Below are positions 49,958-64,000 of a stretch of DNA of 64,000 nt, in pieces; the stretch's first letter is position 1, and each line of letters begins with the position of its first letter. The stretch comes from Rhynochetos jubatus (lineage: Eukaryota; Chordata; Aves; Eurypygiformes; Rhynochetidae). Made by a program: the position numbers and the translations under genes. The notes under the pieces are model-generated. The model worked only from the letters and a program-made list of their open reading frames with translations, did no database searches and was not told where the DNA came from. The stretch lies in NCBI GenBank assembly GCA_027574665.1, contig CM050658.1, positions 25,627,098 through 25,691,097 of the forward strand. The letters run 5' to 3'.

Positions 49958-51104
49958 AGGTGTCCCTCTGGATTTAGACTTTGCAGGTGATCCAGAGCTC
50001 TGTCTTAACAAGCATGCAGTGATCTGCCAAAACAAACAAGGTTTCCCTAAGAAATTCTCTCGTAGCTCTTTCCCTTTTGGAGGAAAAGGGAGAGGTTTGT
50101 TTCTAAGCTTTTCAAGGAGTCCAGCATTCTGCCGAAAAGGGAATGAACTGCTGGAGCACAGCGAGAGAAAAGAGCGGAAGCAATTCCTTCCTATGTCTTT
50201 CCGTTTTGTCCTAGTCTATTTGGACCACAAGGTGTCCCTCTGGATTTAGGCTTTGCAGGTGATGCAGAGCTCTGTCTTAACAGGCATGCAGTGGTCTGCC
50301 AAAACAAACAATGTTTCCCTAAGAAATTCTCTCGTAGCTCTTTCCGCTTTGGAGGAAAAGGGAGAGGTTTGTTTCTAAGCTTTTCAAGGAGTCCAGCATT
50401 CTGCCGAAAAGGGAATGAACTGCTGGAGCACAGCGAGAGAAAAGAGCGGAAGCAATTCCTTCCTAGCTCTTTCAGATTCGGAGCAAATGTAGCACTGTTG
50501 CAATTGGAGATTGCAAGCAAGACAGCGATCCGGCTGCTCTGGCACGCAGTGCTCTGCAAAGGCGCAGGAAGAAGGGACAAGAAATTCTCTCCTAACTCTT
50601 TCTGTTTGGTCGCATTACAGTGCTGCTTCAGATGGCCGTGTTCGGGCAGACGCTTCAACGAGCCGCGCATTCGAGCCTCTCCGAGCCTGTTAGCACAGAG
50701 AAGGTGTCCCCCTGGATTTCGTCTTTCCCGGGGATACAGAGCTCTGTCTTAAGAGGCATGCAGTGGTCTGCCAAAACAAACATGGTTTCACTAACAAATT
50801 CTCTCGTAGCTCTTTCCCTTTTGGAGGAAAAGGGAGAGGTTTGTTTCTAAGCTTTTCAAGGAGTCCAGCATTCTGCCGAAAAGGGAATGAACTGCTGGAG
50901 CACAGCGAGAGAAAAGAGCGGAAGCAATTCCTTCCTAGCTCTTTCAGATTCGGAGCAACTGTAGCACTGTTGCAATTGGAGATTGCAAGCAAGACAGCGT
51001 TCCGGCTGCTCTGGCACGCAGTGCTCTGCAAAGACGCAGCAAGAAGGGACAAGAAATTCTCTCCTAACTCTTTCTGTTTGGTCGCATTATAGTGCTGCTT
51101 TAGA
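49958..51104. repeat. Diverged right edge of the satellite array
   Basis: The last two and a half monomers are the most different in the window. They show 'tttcaaggagtccagcattc', 'gaaaagagcggaagcaattc' and 'ctctttcagattcggagcaa' in place of the standard sequences. Increasing divergence toward an array end is the usual result of reduced exchange at the edge. The array stops within a monomer just after 'gcattatagtgctgctttag'. Confidence 0.8.
50049..50320. repeat. Truncated 272-bp satellite monomer
   Basis: The spacing between marker cores at 50,049 and 50,321 is 272 bp instead of 472. Sequence after 'aagcaattccttcctatgtc' (about 50,178-50,200) jumps to 'gtccctctggatttaggctt' at about 50,233. 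The join includes roughly 30 bases ('ttttgtcctagtctatttgg' and neighbours) not seen in other monomers. The third internal sub-repeat and the region after it are lost. Confidence 0.85.
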
Positions 51105-51105
51105 G
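51104..51105. other. Junction between satellite and FOXJ1-like gene array
   Basis: Satellite sequence ends at 'gtgctgctttaga' and the gene unit begins at 'gcctttgaacgcggctgccg'. In later units the same point (55,341, 59,601, 63,842) is preceded by 'ctccgcggctgca'. The two sides share only the short overlap 'agcc', so the break looks like a micro-homology or blunt join. It falls inside the GC-rich promoter-side region of the unit. Confidence 0.85.
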
Positions 51106-52190
51106 CCTTTGAACGCGGCTGCCGGCCCCGGCCGGGCATGAGCGCGGCGCGAGCGCGGCGCGGCGGGACTACCCGCCCCGCTCCCGCAGCACAGGCTTTT
51201 TGCCCCCAAAACAAGGCTGGGGGCAGCCACAGCCGCGTTCAGGTGCCTGCTCCCCAGTGTCACCCCCCAGCCGGGCCAGCTCCTGTGCTGGCAGGGAACG
51301 AGGATCCCATCCCAGGAACGTCGGGTGCAGCGAGCGGGGAGCAGGGGGGGGCCTCCAACGGACAAAAGTCCCGATGCAATCAGTAAAGATGAAACTGCGC
51401 CTAGAGAAGAAAGCTCCAAGAACAAAACCGAGCCCTCCCCCGGGCAAACCTCCCGCTCCTGACAGCCGGCTTTGCACGGGCCGCCCGGCTGAGCCCTCCC
51501 TCGGCAGCGCCCCTCCCCCCGCCGCTTTCTGCCACCGCGGCTGTCCGGCCGTCCCTTACCTCGTCCCGGCGACGACCCCCAACTTGCAAAGCTCACGGGA
51601 GAGGAGGGAGCTTCTGGAAAAGCGGGCGCAAAACCCCTAGACAAGCCCCAAGAGGGAACGATTCAATCAAGTCCCACAAAAGGCCCAAAGGGACGACGCT
51701 GGGGGTGCCGGGGGGTTCTGCCTGGCCCCCGCGGGTGAGCAATGACCCTGCCCAACGGCCTGTCATCACCCCCAGGAGCTCCTCGTAGGAAGGATGCGCC
51801 AGGCGTTGGCAGCAGCTCCCAGGACACTGGGCCACCCTCGTGCCGCACAGCTGCTGGCTAACCATCGCCATGCAGGCGGTGCTTTGCGCCTCGGTTTCCC
51901 CTCGGGGAATTGCCGTGCCGCCGCGCACGGGGGTGGGTAGCACCCACGGACCGGGGCTGGGCTGGTGAGATGTCCCCTACCCACAGGGGAGGGCGTCAGA
52001 CACAGACGGGCAGCGCTGGAGGGAAAGAAGGAGGCAAACGGACCGTTTCTTGCTTTGTCAAAACTTAGAGATAACTTTCCCTGGCAAAGGTGCAATGGCA
52101 CGTGCATCTCTGCCCTATTTCAGCCTCCACACAGAGGCCCCAAACCAGAAAAACAGAGGACAACCAAGTGATCAAGATTTACAACCACAA
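51105..52190. other. Non-coding GC-rich spacer, 'orphan' promoter-side sequence
   Basis: It is equivalent to the CpG-rich upstream region seen at 55,341-56,425 and 59,601-60,690. Here no gene body lies downstream on the minus strand, because the satellite begins at 51,104. Several open frames exist on both strands, as expected in GC-rich DNA, but none resembles a known protein. If the promoter is active here, minus-strand transcription would run into the satellite. Confidence 0.6.
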
Positions 52191-52193
52191 AGA

Positions 52194-52199
52194 TTTATA
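52194..52199 (-). terminator. Candidate poly(A) signal, gene copy 1
   Basis: Minus-strand TATAAA, a known weak variant of AATAAA, lies about 135 bp past the alternative-frame stop and about 235 bp past the annotated stop. It is followed by a GT-rich stretch ('tttgtggttgtaaatcttga'). No canonical AATAAA was seen nearer. Confidence 0.4.
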
Positions 52200-52331
52200 A
52201 CAAACCTCTTTCAACATCACCTATCTATCCCCAAAGCCCCCCCCAGAGACATGGCCCTTGCTTGCTGGCCTCGGGACACCCCACCCCCCTAAAAAGGAGC
52301 CTGCGTGGGCTTTCAAATGCTGACAGGCCTC

Positions 52332-52484
52332 TCAGAAGAGGGCTGCCACACTGCTCCAGTCATTCCAATCCAGGGGCAAAGGGACGTTCTCCAACAGATC
52401 CACGCTGAGGACATCGAGCTTTGTCCCTTCATCACAGTGGAGCCCCAGGAAAGAAGCGGCCCTCAGGGCTTCCTCCCAAGCCCA
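52332..52484 (-). pseudogene. Out-of-frame remnant of the ancestral FOXJ1 C-terminal tail, copy 1
   Basis: In a frame offset by one base from the annotated CDS, this stretch reads about 50 open codons ending in TGA. It begins [11 protein letters not shown], comparable to DETFLATSFL in human FOXJ1, and ends WNDWSSVAALF, comparable to LQDWASVGAFL. This is clearly the family's usual C-terminus. The annotated frame instead stops at 52,432. The change needs one extra or two missing bases near the 12-bp glycine/glutamine repeat. No GT-AG intron of plausible size restores the frame. Confidence 0.75.
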
Positions 52485-54368
52485 GGTCGGTCTGGCTGGA
52501 CTCGGTGAGGACCTGCCCCTGCTCCTGCCCCTGGACAGCGTCCACCTGGTGCCCGCGTACCGTCAGGTCCGGGTTGCGTGGTACGGGGCTGCCTGGAGGC
52601 GTGAACTTCACATCCTCAAAAACGGACAAGTCTATATCCAGGCTGGCGTTGAGGATGGAGTCCCAGTCAAAGGCCCCTTGCAGCGACATCAGGTCGTCCT
52701 CTTCCTCCTGCGTCGGCAAGGCCTGCTCCTGCGTCGGCAAGGCCTGCTCTTCAGCCGGCAAGGCCTGCTCCTCCGTCGGCAAGGCCTGCTCTTCAGCCGG
52801 CAAGGCCTGCTCCTCCGTCCGCAAGGCCTTCTCTTCAGCCGGCAAGGCCTGCTCCTCCGTCGCCAAGGCCAAATTGGAAAGCCGAGATGCCTTGGCCATG
52901 CGTTTGGGTGAGGGCAGCTTGCGTTTTTGCCCTGCTTTGCCACCTGCCGGACTCCACTGGTGCTCGCCGGTCATTGCTTCAAACTCTTCCAGCAGCTTCT
53001 GCGACTCTTTGTCGACGCTGAGCATGCTCTCGACGGTGCAGACGACAGCGGCGGGGCCGGCAACGCCCTGGGCCGCTTGCCGGACTCTTCTGGTGAGGGC
53101 CGGGTGGATTTGCAGGGACACCCTCCGCTTTCTGAAAGCGTCTTTCTTCAGCCGCTCAGCATGTTGGGGGTCCAGCTTCCAAAAGCCACCTTTCCCTGGC
53201 TCGTCCTTCTCCCAAGGCACCTTGACAAAGCATTTGTTGAAGGAGAGGTTGTGCCGGACGGAATTCTAAACCAAAAGAGAAAAAACCTAGGCTGAAGGCT
53301 TGTCTGCCGCTGCGGCACCCACCTGCACGGGGAGGCGGCTAGAAATGCATGCCCGTTTTCATCACGGACCTTGGCGAAGGGGAAGCAGAAACGGCAGCGT
53401 CAAGACATCCCGGGCCACGTTCCCAGCACAAACTCCCCTGCCCTGAGCCACCAACACTTCTCTTGCCTCCCGGCCTAATGCAGCCACACTTGGCAGGAGC
53501 GAAGGGCTTCCAGGAAGCCGGAAGGGCTGCCTAGAAACTGGGGGGAGGAAGGAAGGAAGGAAGGAAGGGAAAAGCAGCAGGAGCACAGGTATCCCGGCAA
53601 CAAAGCTGGGCTGTGGTACTCCAAATGTCAAATGCCATGAATTTGTCCAAGGGCCGCAGACTTGCAAGCTGAAGTGTCTGCTCGGCCTCTTCCCTCCCCA
53701 TCCCCAACTTCATTCCGCCTGGGCCACCCCCCGTTTTTACCTGGCCACCTGACCTCTTTGTCATTGCTGTCTGATCCAGCATCCTGGCCAGACCTCGCCT
53801 TGTGTGGTGGAGGCTGTGGAAAGCCCTAGCCAGCCCTGTGGCGGGAGGGGACGAGGCAAGAGGTCTCCAAATCTCCTACCTGCCAGGTGGCATTGGCATG
53901 TCGGAAGTAGCAGAAGTTGTCGGTAATCCACTTGTAGATGGCGGAGGGGGGGATTTTAGGCTGATTGCTGGCTTCCATCGCCATGCAGATGAGCTCAGCA
54001 TAGGAGTAGGGTGGCTTGAGGGACGCGTTGGTCTTGTAGTCGACGTCCTCTGTTGCCTCAGGGTGCGTGGCCACGGCACGGTGCATGGACCTGGAGGTGG
54101 AAGAAGAGGTGGGAGTGCACGGGGGGTGGGCAATACCCATGCGTGCCAGGCCAGCGGCCCGGCGCGAGCACGGGGCAGCAAAGGAGGGCAACTTATCCCA
54201 GGCCCGGCGTTCCAGGCCTCTGGAGAGGTACGGAGGCCTGGGCATGCCCGTATCGGTGACGGTGAAGTCCTCCAGCCACGTGACGTCGGGCAGGCCGTCG
54301 TCCACCTCGTGCGCGGCGTAGGGCCGCCACCTTCCCTCCGCTGCTGCCTTCCGCCATGCCCCAGCCAT
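52432..54368 (-). CDS. FOXJ1-like: FOXJ1-like forkhead transcription factor, copy 1
   Basis: Coding exons are 54,368-53,880 (163 codons) and 53,265-52,432 (277 codons plus TGA), joined in phase 0; the product is 440 residues, against 421 for human FOXJ1. The start ATG lies 27 bases into exon 2 (acceptor after 'caccctgtcag', exon from 54,394) and has G at -3 and +4. The product opens MAGAW, comparable to MAESW in FOXJ1. The forkhead domain spans residues 118-211: KPPYSY, a [12 protein letters not shown] segment, then the recognition helix with [13 protein letters not shown] and a DEPGKGGFW wing. FOXJ1 is the nuclear master regulator of motile cilia and flagella in vertebrates. A basic cluster ([10 protein letters not shown], about 276-285) may be a nuclear-localisation signal. 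Odd features: residue 181, the normally invariant Arg of the PREKDE motif, is Trp here but Arg in copies 2 and 3; residues 300-351 are a seven-residue repeat; and the C-terminus has changed frame. Confidence 0.92.
52699..52857 (-). repeat. Coding 21-bp tandem repeat in exon 3, copy 1
   Basis: About seven and a half copies of a 21-bp unit encode a seven-residue repeat of the type [14 protein letters not shown], with EEKALRT and QEQALPT variants. It lies between the basic region and the conserved 'FDW' block. Human FOXJ1 has a single short 'TPEEQGELEPL' segment at this place, so the repeat is an expansion in this lineage. Copy number is the same in all three genes. Confidence 0.9.
53266..53879 (-). 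other. Intron 2 of FOXJ1-like copy 1
   Basis: The donor CAG|GTAGGAG lies directly after the codon for residue 163, and the acceptor 'ttttggtttag|AATTCC' directly before residue 164. It is a 614-base phase-0 intron inside the forkhead domain, interrupting ATWQ/NSVRH. It holds a GGAA microsatellite (53,546-53,570) and nothing else recognised. Confidence 0.9.
53546..53570. repeat. GGAA microsatellite in intron 2
   Basis: A 25-bp run of 'ggaa' repeats. It is the same length in unit 2 (57,794-57,818) and 8 bp (two repeats) shorter in unit 3 (62,043-62,059). Confidence 0.95.
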
Positions 54369-54655
54369 GCCTTGGGCCTTCAGCTGCTCTTGCGCTGACA
54401 GGGTGCACAGGGAGGGACAGGGTGGGGCAGAGCCTGCAAGAAGAGCATCGAGGGGCTTTGAGGCTCCCCAAGGCGCAGCCACCCTGCGGCACGTGGGCAG
54501 GGCCGGCACTGCCTGCTCCCGGCGCCGCCGAGGGAGACCCGTCGCCGGGGTGCTGTGCACCAGGGCCGCCACGTCTCCCCTAGCAAGGGGGGGGCCTTAG
54601 CAGTCCCGAACCTCGGGTAAGCACCCCCGTGGCCCGCTCTCACCCCAACCCCGAC

Positions 54656-54970
54656 GCTGCTCGGCCAGCCTGCGGCCGGAGGAAGAGAGACACAAAGAAG
54701 AAAAAAAAAAAGGACACCTCCGCGGCCGCCCCCCATCCGCCCCCCCGCTGCTCCCACAACTCCGGCGCTGCCCGGCAAGCCTGCGGCCGGAGAAAGACAC
54801 AGAAAGAAGAAAAAAAACCCCGCACACCTCCGCGCCCCACCCCCCCGCCGCCCCCCCCCCCGCTCCCACAGCCCCGGCGCTGCCCGGCCAGCCTGCGGCT
54901 GGAGAAAGAGAGTCAGAAAGAAGAAAAAAAAAACCGCACACCTCCGCGCCCCCCACCCCCGCCGCTCCCA
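54656..54970. repeat. Intron 1 minisatellite with C homopolymer, unit 1
   Basis: Nearly three degenerate copies of an approximately 111-bp unit, marked by 'cggccagcctgcgg' at 54,662, 54,773 (as 'cggcaagc') and 54,885. Each copy contains a 'cagaaagaagaaaaaa' tract, then 'cacctccgcg', then a C-rich run. The longest C run is 11 here, 23 in unit 2 and 22 in unit 3. On the transcribed RNA these runs are G-rich. Confidence 0.85.
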
Positions 54971-54996
54971 ATCCAGCCCCGCTGTCTCACAACGCA

Positions 54997-55064
54997 GGGA
55001 TGTCTCCGGCAGAGCAAAATTTCCAGCTCAGGGATGTCTCCGGCAGAGCAAAATTTCCAGCTCC
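54997..55064. repeat. 34-bp direct duplication in intron 1, unit 1
   Basis: 'gggatgtctccggcagagca' plus 14 further bases occurs twice in immediate succession, with one base difference at the end. It is present at the same place in units 2 and 3. Confidence 0.95.
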
Positions 55065-55097
55065 ACACGCCCCCGCCCCTGCCCGCTCCCCACTTAC

Positions 55098-55210
55098 CTG
55101 GCGGTCACTCTGCTGCTACCCCTCAAACGGTTCTCGGCGACCAGCGGACCCAGCGCAAGCACACGCTCCCTCAGCGCCGGCCGGCGGAGTCCAGCTTCCG
55201 TTAGCTGTGG
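55098..55210 (-). other. Probable non-coding exon 1 of FOXJ1-like copy 1
   Basis: A consensus donor, CCGCCAG|GTAAGTG, ends an exon at 55,098. The next good acceptor downstream is at 54,395-54,396, just before the start ATG, so the exon would be 5' untranslated. Human FOXJ1 likewise has a non-coding first exon. The 5' end is not visible from sequence; the limit given is nominal. Confidence 0.55.
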
Positions 55211-55850
55211 CCTCGCGCCGCCAACCGTCCAACCGGCAGCCCAGGGCTCGCGGCGCCCGCGAGCGCAACCGGGTGCGCGCGGCCCGGCCCCGGCCCCGGC
55301 CCGGCCCCGGCAAGCGCCGGCGCCGAGCTCCGCGGCTGCAGCCTTTGAACGCGGCTGCCGGCCCCGGCCGGGCATGAGCGCGGCGCGAGCGCGGCGCGGC
55401 GGGACTACCCGCCCCGCTCCCGCAGCACAGGCTTTTTGCCCCCAAAACAAGGCTGGGGGCAGCCACAGCCGCGTTCAGGTGCCTGCTCCCCAGTGTCACC
55501 CCCCAGCCGGGCCAGCTCCTGTGCTGGCAGGGAACGAGGATCCCATCCCAGGAACGCCGGGTGCAGCGAGCGGGGAGCGGGGGGGGGCCTCCAACGGACA
55601 AAAGTCCCGATGCAATCAGTAAAGATGAAACTGCGCCTAGAGAAGAAAGCTCCAAGAACAAAACCGAGCCCTCCCCCGGGCAAACCTCCCGCTCCTGACA
55701 GCCGGCTTTGCACGGGCCGCCCGGCTGAGCCCTCCCTCGGCAGCGCCCCTCCCCCCGCCGCTTTCTGCCACCCCGGCTGTCCGGCCGTCCCTTACCTCGT
55801 CCCGGCGACGACCCCCAACTTGCAAAGCTCACGGGAGAGGAGGGAGCTTC
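55200..55850 (-). promoter_or_regulatory. CpG-rich promoter region of FOXJ1-like copy 1
   Basis: This stretch is extremely CpG- and GC-rich ('gagcgcggcgcgagcgcggc' and similar) and lies just upstream of exon 1 on the minus strand, across the unit 1/unit 2 boundary. There is no TATA box at a useful position. A CpG-island promoter is the simplest reading. I could not identify a convincing RFX X-box. Confidence 0.55.
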
Positions 55851-56429
55851 TGGAAAAGCGGGCGCAAAACCCCTAGACAAGCCCCAAGAGGGAACGATTC
55901 AATCAAGTCCCACAAAAGGCCCAAAGGGACGACGCTGGGGGTGCCGGGGGGTTCTGCCTGGCCCCCGCGGGTGAGCAATGACCCTGCCCAACGGCCTGTC
56001 ATCACCCCCAGGAGCTCCTCGTAGGAAGGATGCGCCAGGCGTTGGCAGCAGCTCCCAGGACACTGGGCCACCCTCGTGCCGCACAGCTGCTGGCTAACCA
56101 TCGCCATGCAGGCGGTGCTTTGCGCCTCGGTTTCCCCTCGGGGAATTGCCGTGCCGCCGCGCACGGGGGTGGGTAGCACCCACGGACCAGGGCTGGGCTG
56201 GTGAGATGTCCCCTACCCACAGGGGAGGGCATCAGACACAGACGGGCAGCGCTGGAGGGAAAGAAGGAGGCAAACGGACCGTTTCTTGCTTTGTCAAAAC
56301 TTAGAGATAACTTTCCCTGGCAAAGGTGCAATGGCACGTGCATCTCTGCCCTATTTCAGCCTCCACACAGAGGCCCCAAACCAGAAAAACAGAGGACAAC
56401 CAAGTGATCAAGATTTACAACCACAAAGA

Positions 56430-56435
56430 TTTATA
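56430..56435 (-). terminator. Candidate poly(A) signal, gene copy 2
   Basis: Minus-strand TATAAA followed by GT-rich sequence, at the same place as in copies 1 and 3. Confidence 0.4.
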
Positions 56436-56567
56436 ACAAACCTCTTTCAACATCACCTATCTATCCCCAAAGCCCCCCCCAGAGACATGGCCCTTGCTTG
56501 CTGGCCTCGGGACACCCCACCCCCCTAAAAAGGAGCCTGCGTGGGCTTTCAAATGCTGACAGGCCTC

Positions 56568-58616
<2,049 letters not shown>

Positions 58617-58903
58617 GCCTTGGGCCTTCAGCTGCTCTTGCGCTGACAGGGTGCACAGGGAGGGACAGGGTGGGGCAGAGCCTGCAAGAAGAGCATCGAG
58701 GGGCTTTGAGGCTCCCCAAGGCGCAGCCACCCTGCGGCACGTGGGCAGGGCCGGCACTGCCTGCTCCCGGCGCCGCCGAGGGAGACCCGTCGCCGGGGTG
58801 CTGTGCACCAGGGCCGCCACGTCTCCCCTGGCAAGGGGGGGGCCTTAGCAGTCCCGAACCTCGGGTAAGCACCCCCGTGGCCCGCTCTCACCCCAACCCC
58901 GAC

Positions 58904-59230
58904 GCTGCTCGGCCAGCCTGCGGCCGGAGGAAGAGAGACACAAAGAAGAAAAAAAAAAAGGACACCTCCGCGGCCGCCCCCCATCCGCCCCCCCGCTGCT
59001 CCCACAACTCCGGCGCTGCCCGGCAAGCCTGCGGCCGGAGAAAGACACAGAAAGAAGAAAAAAAACCCCGCACACCTCCGCGCCCCACCCCCCCGCCGCC
59101 CCCCCCCCCCCCCCCCCCCCCGCTCCCACAGCCCCGGCGCTGCCCGGCCAGCCTGCGGCTGGAGAAAGAGAGTCAGAAAGAAGAAAAAAAAAACCGCACA
59201 CCTCCGCGCCCCCCACCCCCGCCGCTCCCA
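58904..59230. repeat. Intron 1 minisatellite with 23-C homopolymer, unit 2
   Basis: Same triplicated approximately 111-bp structure as unit 1, with the C run extended to 23 (59,099-59,121). This run accounts for half of the length difference to unit 1. Confidence 0.85.
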
Positions 59231-59256
59231 ATCCAGCCCCGCTGTCTCACAACGCA

Positions 59257-59324
59257 GGGATGTCTCCGGCAGAGCAAAATTTCCAGCTCAGGGATGTCTC
59301 CGGCAGAGCAAAATTTCCAGCTCC
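59257..59324. repeat. 34-bp direct duplication in intron 1, unit 2
   Basis: Two adjacent copies starting 'gggatgtctccggcagagca', as in units 1 and 3. Confidence 0.95.
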
Positions 59325-59357
59325 ACACGCCCCCGCCCCTGCCCGCTCCCCACTTAC

Positions 59358-59470
59358 CTGGCGGTCACTCTGCTGCTACCCCTCAAACGGTTCTCGGCGA
59401 CCAGCGGACCCAGCGCAAGCACACGCTCCCTCAGCGCCGGCCGGCGGAGTCCAGCTTCCGTTAGCTGTGG
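59358..59470 (-). other. Probable non-coding exon 1 of FOXJ1-like copy 2
   Basis: The consensus donor CAG|GTAAGTG ends the exon at 59,358. The 5' limit is nominal. It pairs with the acceptor just 5' of the ATG exon, giving an intron of about 715 bases. Confidence 0.55.
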
Positions 59471-60110
59471 CCTCGCGCCGCCAACCGTCCAACCGGCAGC
59501 CCAGGGCTCGCGGCGCCCGCGAGCGCAACCGGGTGCGCGCGGCCCGGCCCCGGCCCCGGCCCGGCCCCAGCAAGCGCCGGCGCCGAGCTCCGCGGCTGCA
59601 GCCTTTGAACGCGGCTGCCGGCCCCGGCCGGGCATGAGCGCGGCGCGAGCGCGGCGCGGCGGGACTACCCGCCCCGCTCCCGCAGCACAGGCTTTTTGCC
59701 CCCAAAACAAGGCTGGGGGCAGCCACAGCCGCGTTCAGGTGCCTGCTCCCCAGTGTCACCCCCCAGCCGGGCCAGCTCCTGTGCTGGCAGGGAACGAGGA
59801 TCCCATCCCAGGAACGCCGGGTGCAGCGAGCGGGGAGCGGGGGGGGGGCCTCCAACGGACAAAAGTCCCGATGCAATCAGTAAAGATGAAACTGCGCCTA
59901 GAGAAGAAAGCTCCAAGAACAAAACCGAGCCCTCCCCCGGGCAAACCTCCCGCTCCTGACAGCCGGCTTTGCACGGGCCGCCCGGCTGAGCCCTCCCTCG
60001 GCAGCGCCCCTCCCCCCGCCGCTTTCTGCCACCGCGGCTGTCCGGCCGTCCCTTACCTCGTCCCGGCGACGACCCCCAACTTGCAAAGCTCACGGGAGAG
60101 GAGGGAGCTT
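59460..60110 (-). promoter_or_regulatory. CpG-rich promoter region of FOXJ1-like copy 2
   Basis: Equivalent of the copy 1 promoter region, across the unit 2/unit 3 boundary. It contains a 9-G run near 59,841 (8 in units 1 and 2) and a second good donor-like site (see findings). Confidence 0.55.
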
Positions 60111-60690
60111 CTGGAAAAGCGGGCGCAAAACCCCTAGACAAGCCCCAAGAGGGAACGATTCAATCAAGTCCCACAAAAGGCCCAAAGGGACGACGCTGGG
60201 GGTGCCGGGGGGTTCTGCCTGGCCCCCGCGGGTGAGCAATGACCCTGCCCAACGGCCTGTCATCACCCCCAGGAGCTCCTCGTAGGAAGGATGCGCCAGG
60301 CGTTGGCAGCAGCTCCCAGGACACTGGGCCACCCTCGTGCCGCACAGCTGCTGGCTAACCATCGCCATGCAGGCGGTGCTTTGCGCCTCGGTTTCCCCTC
60401 GGGGAATTGCCGTGCCGCCGCGCACGGGGGTGGGTAGCACCCACGGACCGGGGCTGGGCTGGTGAGATGTCCCCTACCCACAGGGGAGGGCGTCAGACAC
60501 AGACGGGCAGCGCTGGAGGGAAAGAAGGAGGCAAACGGACCGTTTCTTGCTTTGTCAAAACTTAGAGATAACTTTCCCTGGCAAAGGTGCAATGGCACGT
60601 GCATCTCTGCCCTATTTCAGCCTCCACACAGAGGCCCCAAACCAGAAAAACAGAGGACAACCAAGTGATCAAGATTTACAACCACAAAGA

Positions 60691-60696
60691 TTTATA
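60691..60696 (-). terminator. Candidate poly(A) signal, gene copy 3
   Basis: Minus-strand TATAAA, same context as copies 1 and 2. Confidence 0.4.
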
Positions 60697-60828
60697 ACAA
60701 ACCCCTTTCAACATCACCTATCTATCCCCAAAGCCCCCCCCAGAGACATGGCCCTTGCTTGCTGGCCTCGGGACACCCCACCCCCCTAAAAAGGAGCCTG
60801 CGTGGGCTTTCAAATGCTGACAGGCCTC

Positions 60829-62857
<2,029 letters not shown>

Positions 62858-63144
62858 GCCTTGGGCCTTCAGCTGCTCTTGCGCTGACAGGGTGCACAGG
62901 GAGGGACAGGGTGGGGCAGAGCCTGCAAGAAGAGCATCGAGGGGCTTTGAGGCTCCCCAAGGCGCAGCCACCCTGCGGCACGTGGGCAGGGCCGGCACTG
63001 CCTGCTCCCGGCGCCGCCGAGGGAGACCCGTCGCCGGGGTGCTGTGCACCAGGGCCGCCACGTCTCCCCTGGCAAGGGGGGGGCCTTAGCAGTCCCGAAC
63101 CTCGGGTAAGCACCCCCGTGGCCCGCTCTCACCCCAACCCCGAC

Positions 63145-63471
63145 GCTGCTCGGCCAGCCTGCGGCCGGAGGAAGAGAGACACAAAGAAGAAAAAAAAAAA
63201 AGGACACCTCCGCGGCCGCCCCCCATCCGCCCCCCCGCTGCTCCCACAACTCCGGCGCTGCCCGGCAAGCCTGCGGCCGGAGAAAGACACAGAAAGAAGG
63301 AAAAAAACCCCGCACACCTCCGCGCCCCACCCCCCCGCCGCCCCCCCCCCCCCCCCCCCCCCGCTCCCACAGCCCCGGCGCTGCCCGGCCAGCCTGCGGC
63401 TGGAGAAAGAGAGTCAGAAAGAAGAAAAAAAAAACCGCACACCTCCGCGCCCCCCACCCCCGCCGCTCCCA
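63145..63471. repeat. Intron 1 minisatellite with 22-C homopolymer, unit 3
   Basis: Same structure as in units 1 and 2; the C run is 22 (63,341-63,362), and the first A run is one base longer. Confidence 0.85.
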
Positions 63472-63497
63472 ATCCAGCCCCGCTGTCTCACAACGCA

Positions 63498-63565
63498 GGG
63501 ATGTCTCCGGCAGAGCAAAATTTCCAGCTCAGGGATGTCTCCGGCAGAGCAAAATTTCCAGCTCC
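63498..63565. repeat. 34-bp direct duplication in intron 1, unit 3
   Basis: As in units 1 and 2. Confidence 0.95.
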
Positions 63566-63598
63566 ACACGCCCCCGCCCCTGCCCGCTCCCCACTTAC

Positions 63599-63711
63599 CT
63601 GGCGGTCACTCTGCTGCTACCCCTCAAACGGTTCTCGGCGACCAGCGGACCCAGCGCAAGCACACGCTCCCTCAGCGCCGGCCGGCGGAGTCCAGCTTCC
63701 GTTAGCTGTGG
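63599..63711 (-). other. Probable non-coding exon 1 of FOXJ1-like copy 3
   Basis: The donor CAG|GTAAGTG ends the exon at 63,599. The 5' limit is nominal. Confidence 0.55.
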
Positions 63712-64000
63712 CCTCGCGCCGCCAACCGTCCAACCGGCAGCCCAGGGCTCGCGGCGCCCGCGAGCGCAACCGGGTGCGCGCGGCCCGGCCCCGGCCCCGG
63801 CCCGGCCCCGGCAAGCGCCGGCGCCGAGCTCCGCGGCTGCAGCCTTTGAACGCGGCTGCCGGCCCCGGCCGGGCATGAGCGCGGCGCGAGCGCGGCGCGG
63901 CAGGACTACCCGCCCCGCTCCCGCAGCACAGGCTTTTTGCCCCCAAAACAAGGCTGGGGGCAGCCACAGCCGCGTTCAGGTGCCTGCTCCCCAGTGTCAC
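63701..64000 (-). promoter_or_regulatory. CpG-rich promoter region of FOXJ1-like copy 3, cut by window edge
   Basis: Same CpG-dense sequence as upstream of copies 1 and 2, truncated by the window end. Confidence 0.5.
63842..64000. repeat. Start of tandem gene unit 4 (partial, 159 bp)
   Basis: Sequence from 'gcctttgaacgcggctgccg' onward repeats the start of units 1-3. It has one visible substitution ('ggcaggacta' where the others have 'ggcgggacta'). The gene array therefore continues beyond the right edge. Confidence 0.97.

Follow-up and report, generated by a model that had tools for sequence, protein, structure and literature searches.

The question raised by this locus is whether the copies of a FOXJ1-like gene that follow one another beside a satellite in Rhynochetos jubatus are the ordinary FOXJ1 locus, a local amplicon, or part of a larger structure. 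Since FOXJ1 is ordinarily a master gene present once, the 176 near-identical derivatives counted in this genome are unexpected. The window, i.e., the whole stretch of DNA that was analyzed (64,000 bp), corresponds to C13:25627098-25691097 in a genome of 1.33 Gb and 148 contigs, and contains the following features:

1-51104, no strand assigned: array of a 472-bp satellite, most monomers of which are 98-99% alike
51104-51105, no strand assigned: junction between satellite and unit 1, base-identical in the three contigs read (C13, C12, and C14)
51105-55340, minus strand: FOXJ1-like unit 1 (4236 bp; 440 aa; W181)
Exons of unit 1, minus strand: end of exon 1 at 55098; exon 2 at 54433-53880 (ATG at 54368); exon 3 from 53265, with the stop ending at 52432
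55341-59600, minus strand: FOXJ1-like unit 2 (4260 bp; 444 aa; C69 and M385)
Exons of unit 2, minus strand: end of exon 1 at 59358; coding parts at 58616-58128 and 57513-56668
59601-63841, minus strand: FOXJ1-like unit 3 (4241 bp; 440 aa)
Exons of unit 3, minus strand: end of exon 1 at 63599; coding parts at 62857-62369 and 61762-60929
63842-64000, minus strand: start of unit 4, of which 159 bp (3' flank) lie in the window; the array runs on to C13:25704967

Three complete units of 4.24 kb and the beginning of a fourth, each a three-exon gene, had been described between positions 51105 and 64000 in the earlier note, and this arrangement was confirmed, as were the diagnostic residues proposed there (positions 69 and 385 in unit 2 and 181 in unit 1). 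Comparison of the window with itself gave identities between units of 99.2% and 99.3% over 8.7 and 4.4 kb, respectively. Exon 1 is non-coding, ends in an AG/GTAAGT donor, and resembles exon 1 of the FOXJ1 gene of contig C22 (see below); exon 2 begins after a TTGCAG acceptor, and the coding exons of each complete unit measure 489 bp and 834-846 bp, with a GT..AG intron between them. The only Pfam match of the window-unit protein was Forkhead (1.4e-34), and the exon break lies within this domain, between TWQ and NS, both in the array gene and in the C22 gene. Intron 1 carries 112-bp tandem repeats (54633-54969 in the window), which the C22 gene, whose intron 1 is short, does not have and which bear a likeness to what PMC12954441 describes as "sequence stuttering" in the dot chromosomes of birds.

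An ordinary FOXJ1 gene was found elsewhere. Contig C22 contains a single gene of 438 aa with the same exon break as the arrays and an intact tail, and EXOC7 matches lie about 31 kb from it, at a place other than those of the arrays; EXOC7 is the neighbor of FOXJ1 in human. A sequence beside the C22 gene is presumably a CR1-like tail, and both this tail and the sizes of the chromosomes are bird-like. Among the 150 of 220 candidates that were scored, the C22 gene was the best match to a human FOXJ1 fragment (84% versus 75% for the arrays). The possibility that the array is itself the ordinary FOXJ1 locus, which the shared exon structure would permit, was refuted by this intact-tail gene near EXOC7, and practically no credence is given to it.

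The description of each unit as a full FOXJ1-like gene holds for its three exons and forkhead domain but not for its C-terminus, since an insertion of 1 nt relative to the C22 gene replaces the last ~50 residues, and the conserved C-terminal tail (DWxSVxALF in the C22 gene and in the relics considered below) is missing. A total of 52 distinct copies were read, comprising 30 selected because their exon 3 matched best (window unit 3 among them), 20 hand-picked from various arms, and the first two window units; the frameshifted tail was present in 51 of these, and the remaining copy has an earlier stop. Over 389 codons, the array gene differed from the C22 gene with dN of 0.109 and dS of 0.169 (ratio 0.64). 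When the 14 forkhead differences between them were polarized by FOXK1 and FOXK2, six proved to be array-derived, two C22-derived, and six ambiguous. All six array-derived changes fall on residues common to C22, FOXK1, and FOXK2, and they include V166 and F172 of the NSxRHNLSxN motif, in which R167 is replaced by Q in 2 of the 52 copies.

The extent of the array had been understated, because the three units and the beginning of a fourth belong to 176 copies in 18 arrays on 17 contigs. The copies were counted with a 60-base exon-2 word, allowing up to 3 mismatches (100 of the 176 places listed; reversed control, 0). The junction between the array and the adjoining arm was found 18 times (16 exact and 2 with one mismatch; control, 0), namely on C3, C12, C13, C14, C15, C18, C21, C24, C28, C30, C32 (twice), C35, C49, C130, C143, C146, and C148. 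All 18 arrays thus meet the distal arm at one junction, and the joining base was identical in each of the 13 junctions printed. The number of copies varies between arrays, e.g., 4 on C30 and 19 on C14 among the matches listed, and the C13 array consists of six full units and a 1352-bp partial unit (C13:25678202-25704967). At least one copy of the unit is also present on C66.

The earlier note had correctly recognized a recent FOXJ1-derived amplicon adjoining a satellite, and had likened it to gene families of sex, germline-restricted, or dot chromosomes. An amplicon confined to a sex chromosome, a germline-restricted chromosome, or a single dot chromosome would indeed be expected to be tandem, recent, and satellite-adjacent; however, the 18 arrays occupy 17 contigs, 12 of which exceed 5 Mb (5.7 to 126 Mb), whereas four are 1.1-1.3 Mb long (C130 is outside these figures). 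The sex or germline-restricted assignment was therefore not supported, and an amplicon of any of these three kinds is considered extremely improbable.

On C13, samples taken at 25.20 and 25.35-25.62 Mb were satellite and the sample at 25.0 Mb was non-satellite, which gives a satellite block of at least ~0.48 Mb between the short and long arms; the same-side samples of C18, C35, and C28 were also satellite. Past the array lie about 518 kb of other DNA with TTAGGG repeats at its end. The order on C13 is thus telomere, ~0.5-Mb short arm, array, 472-bp satellite, and long arm, with the 5' ends of the genes pointing toward the telomere. Judging from its position and size on C13, the 472-bp satellite is probably centromeric; both this identity and the placement of the arms rest on one assembly. 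The distance from the junction to the contig end was 476-526 kb in 11 arms (C12, C13, C14, C15, C18, C24, C28, C30, C49, C146, and C148) and 107-152 kb on C3, C21, and C35. Of the arm ends examined, those of C12 and C13 have TTAGGG repeats, those of C30, C3, C21, and C35 have none, and the starts of C14 and C49 read N. Contig C32 (7.2 Mb) carries two arrays at interior positions (1301322 and 3780641), in both of which a premature exon-3 stop has spread; this placement suggests either a joining error or a rearrangement or fused chromosome.

The arms themselves proved to be shared. Near-identical short-arm sequence occurs on different chromosomes of this one assembly: among 16 arms sampled beside the junction, the other 15 were 99.1-99.7% identical to C13 and 99.1-100% identical among themselves, 13 of the alignments to C13 beginning at arm base 1, the C3 alignment at base 82, and the C21 alignment at base 87. 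Collinearity of C12, C14, C3, and C13 was seen at +15 and +55 kb from the junction (99.1-99.8%), and at +195 kb, C13, C18, and C28 were identical at 99.8-100%. No match was found on C12 at the +195 kb coordinate tried; its copy of the mid-arm marker taken from that position lies about 8 kb nearer the array. This marker occurred in 22 places genome-wide, including each of the 14 array arms with a contig long enough to contain it (C12 among them; 178-251 kb from the junction) and seven arms without a young array (C4, C6, C7, C8, C17, C25, and C71). The lone interior copy, at C2:5621531, has one mismatch and is possibly a source of the arm. A further marker, L050 (+445 kb), gave 376 matches, of which 100 were listed, and among these every one of the 11 array arms reaching that far had it at 429-472 kb from the junction; the marker sits in a dispersed repeat and so lends weak support to the sharing of arms. 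The most diverged young arms sampled were those of C49 and C148 (99.1-99.2% to C13 and 99.7% to each other), and V109A was common to the copies read from both; these arms are perhaps alleles or a separate exchange group.

A rootletin-like gene (L040:1969-4000) directly adjoins the array on its telomeric side, and one exon of this gene, 1.1 kb past the junction, encodes a rootletin domain (PF15035, 7.7e-18). By inspection, the array breakpoint itself seems to fall inside a rootletin-like exon, after which comes GTGAGC. A 34-base marker from the rootletin-domain exon (up to 3 mismatches) was found in 39 places and identified 25 arms, namely 17 array arms and eight others (C4, C5, C6, C7, C8, C17, C25, and C71); together with C143, whose contig stops short of this junction-side marker, the arms number 26. 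In addition, C20:16364407-16575136 contains 14 tandem copies of the marker (2-3 mismatches) at intervals of about 16 kb, putatively another cilium-related gene that has been amplified in this genome.

Three of the eight arms without a young array were sampled (C4, C7, and C25), and all of them contain an older, truncated FOXJ1-like relic with the same breakpoint, meeting the arm at the same rootletin-like base as the young arrays do. The relic comprises the 3' flank and the end of exon 3, is 94.9-95.6% identical to the unit, and ends within a 7-residue repeat. The arms of C4, C7, and C25 are 94.5-95.6% identical to C13 and thus represent a second arm type, about 5% diverged. The identity between C4 and C7 is 99.9% over 1.4 kb, and C25 is about 93% identical to both; exchange or recent copying was therefore not limited to the young arms. 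In 500-bp samples from the satellite side of the relic, C4 was satellite, and C25 was about half satellite, its outer part being other sequence. The intervals of 600 and about 850 bp between relic and satellite are too short for a full unit. In all three relics, the C-terminal frame is un-shifted, which indicates that the frameshift arose in the array lineage.

These data also bear on whether one true array with its arm was duplicated into many contigs during assembly. Repeats of such similarity are difficult for an assembler, C32 carries two interior arms, four array contigs are just 1.1-1.3 Mb long, and several contig ends are devoid of telomere repeats, all of which would be compatible with such an artefact. 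However, the arms differ by up to 0.9% beside the junction, the arrays differ in copy number (as between C30 and C14 among the matches listed), intron length, and the number of in-frame repeats, C12 and C13 extend to a TTAGGG telomere, and the 5%-diverged arm type exists as well. An assembly artefact is therefore regarded as very unlikely.

Variation between the 52 copies amounted to 12 replacement and 5 silent variants in exon 2 and to 6 and 1 in the head of exon 3 (18:6 in total), whereas about 2:1 would be expected under neutrality, with a CpG weighting chosen by the analyst; 18 or more replacements among 24 variants would arise by chance in about 27% of cases. The density of variants was 24 per 885 exon sites versus 16 per 614 intron sites. 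Pairwise diversity in all 52 copies was 0.0017 and 0.0010 in the exons and 0.0025 in the intron, the lower exon values being partly due to the selection of 30 copies on exon-3 match; in the set of 23 copies (20 hand-picked and the three window units), the corresponding values were 0.0018, 0.0023, and 0.0024. Thus, on sequence evidence, the changes between copies look neutral, with which a function of the family would still be compatible. CpG transitions account for 14 of the 24 exon variants, at 124 of the 885 bases, and this excess suggests germline methylation. Differences in exon-3 length are mostly multiples of 7 residues. Most of the listed copies retain open frames, and few breaks are expected at such divergence; open frames shorter than 200 aa were found in 15 of 119 array rows (14 on C32 and 1 on C12), and TAG was flagged in 8 listed rows, all from C32.

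The mean distance between copies was 0.102% within arrays (86 pairs) versus 0.193% between arrays (1240 pairs), and none of 1000 label shuffles gave a within-array value as low. Meanwhile, 68 of the 1240 between-array pairs were identical in substitutions, and minority variants recur on different contigs. Kilobase-sized head-to-tail units that are present in several places and homogenized in this way constitute a macrosatellite.

It might be supposed that the copies form a selected, germline-expressed (e.g., testis) family, whose high-dose tail-less FOXJ1 would compete with FOXJ1 on ciliary or flagellar genes or boost its action there. Such a family would account for the preservation of exon 1 and of the CpG-rich 5' region (observed/expected 0.87) in the window units and for the splice sites of the coding intron (donor of exon 2, acceptor of exon 3) kept in all 52 copies; on 7 of 10 chicken dot chromosomes, the genes amplified in pericentromeric heterochromatin show a testis bias (PMC9974502), and the neighboring rootletin-like gene, with its exon marker repeated 14 times on C20, is also ciliary. 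Against it stand the near-neutral replacement-to-silent ratio, the six array-side changes at shared forkhead residues versus two on the C22 side, the loss of the conserved tail, the replacement of R167, the shortened open frames, and the CpG transitions suggestive of germline methylation. A selected family is accordingly considered unlikely.

The explanation preferred here, and held to be probable, is that the short arms of non-homologous chromosomes have exchanged DNA and thereby spread a gene-bearing macrosatellite, whose gene is mostly a passenger. A FOXJ1 duplicate would have lodged on a short arm between the 472-bp satellite and the rootletin-like gene, and one version would then have gained the 1-nt frameshift, losing the conserved C-terminal tail. 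This tail-less version may have been multiplied by unequal exchange into the 4.2-kb macrosatellite, and the ~0.5-Mb arm together with the array would have moved among many chromosomes and been kept similar through non-homologous short-arm exchange of the kind known from human acrocentrics. The best support is for ectopic exchange among short arms, to which the junction, the arm, and the shared minority variants all point, and passenger status is favored by variation that looks neutral and by the shortened frames that have spread on C32; both the exchange and the passenger role are read from sequence and are probable on that basis. A bolder version, in which the short arms of most chromosomes would form one freely exchanging pool and a germline-expressed tail-less FOXJ1, as a selfish or dosage-selected regulator of cilia, would compete with FOXJ1 while riding on, or perhaps driving, the exchange, is judged distinctly unlikely.

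Among known systems, the D4Z4 macrosatellite likewise consists of tandem units of kilobase size that carry the gene of a transcription factor, DUX4, and lies near the ends of more than one chromosome; however, DUX4 is a homeobox gene on few chromosome ends, whereas an intron-bearing forkhead gene in 18 arrays is found here. In a literature search with most subscription journals outside its scope, no amplification of FOXJ1 or of a forkhead gene of this kind, no work treating FOXJ1 together with a macrosatellite, and no precedent for the combination of a shared short arm with a FOXJ1-type array were found. For the arm, the nearest precedent, by analogy, is provided by human acrocentric short arms, which, according to PMC10172130, carry pseudo-homologous regions, i.e., large near-identical segments on non-homologous chromosomes, as do the arms described here. 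Unlike the five human acrocentric chromosomes, 26 arms are involved in this one assembly, with a FOXJ1-derived macrosatellite beside the satellite. For the array, the nearest precedent, also by analogy, is offered by the pericentromeric heterochromatin of chicken dot chromosomes, where, in PMC9974502, testis-expressed amplicons are reported, such as OR29G with 386 intact copies on chr29. The resemblance that had been drawn to such amplicons is a fair one, both cases involving protein genes at very high copy number in heterochromatin, whereas here a common arm links the 18 arrays of a single family, which are distributed over 17 contigs. In 19 chicken acrocentrics, the short arm is described in that source as containing, apart from telomere and CNM repeats, a conserved sequence of 5 kb and nothing else.

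Thus, the short arms of many chromosomes of R. jubatus share a segment of ~0.5 Mb, as do human acrocentrics, but on more chromosomes. The sequence markers are ready for use in studying the exchange of DNA between non-homologous short arms, and the system opens the question of how genes turn into satellites and whether such arms may influence chromosome fusions or segregation.
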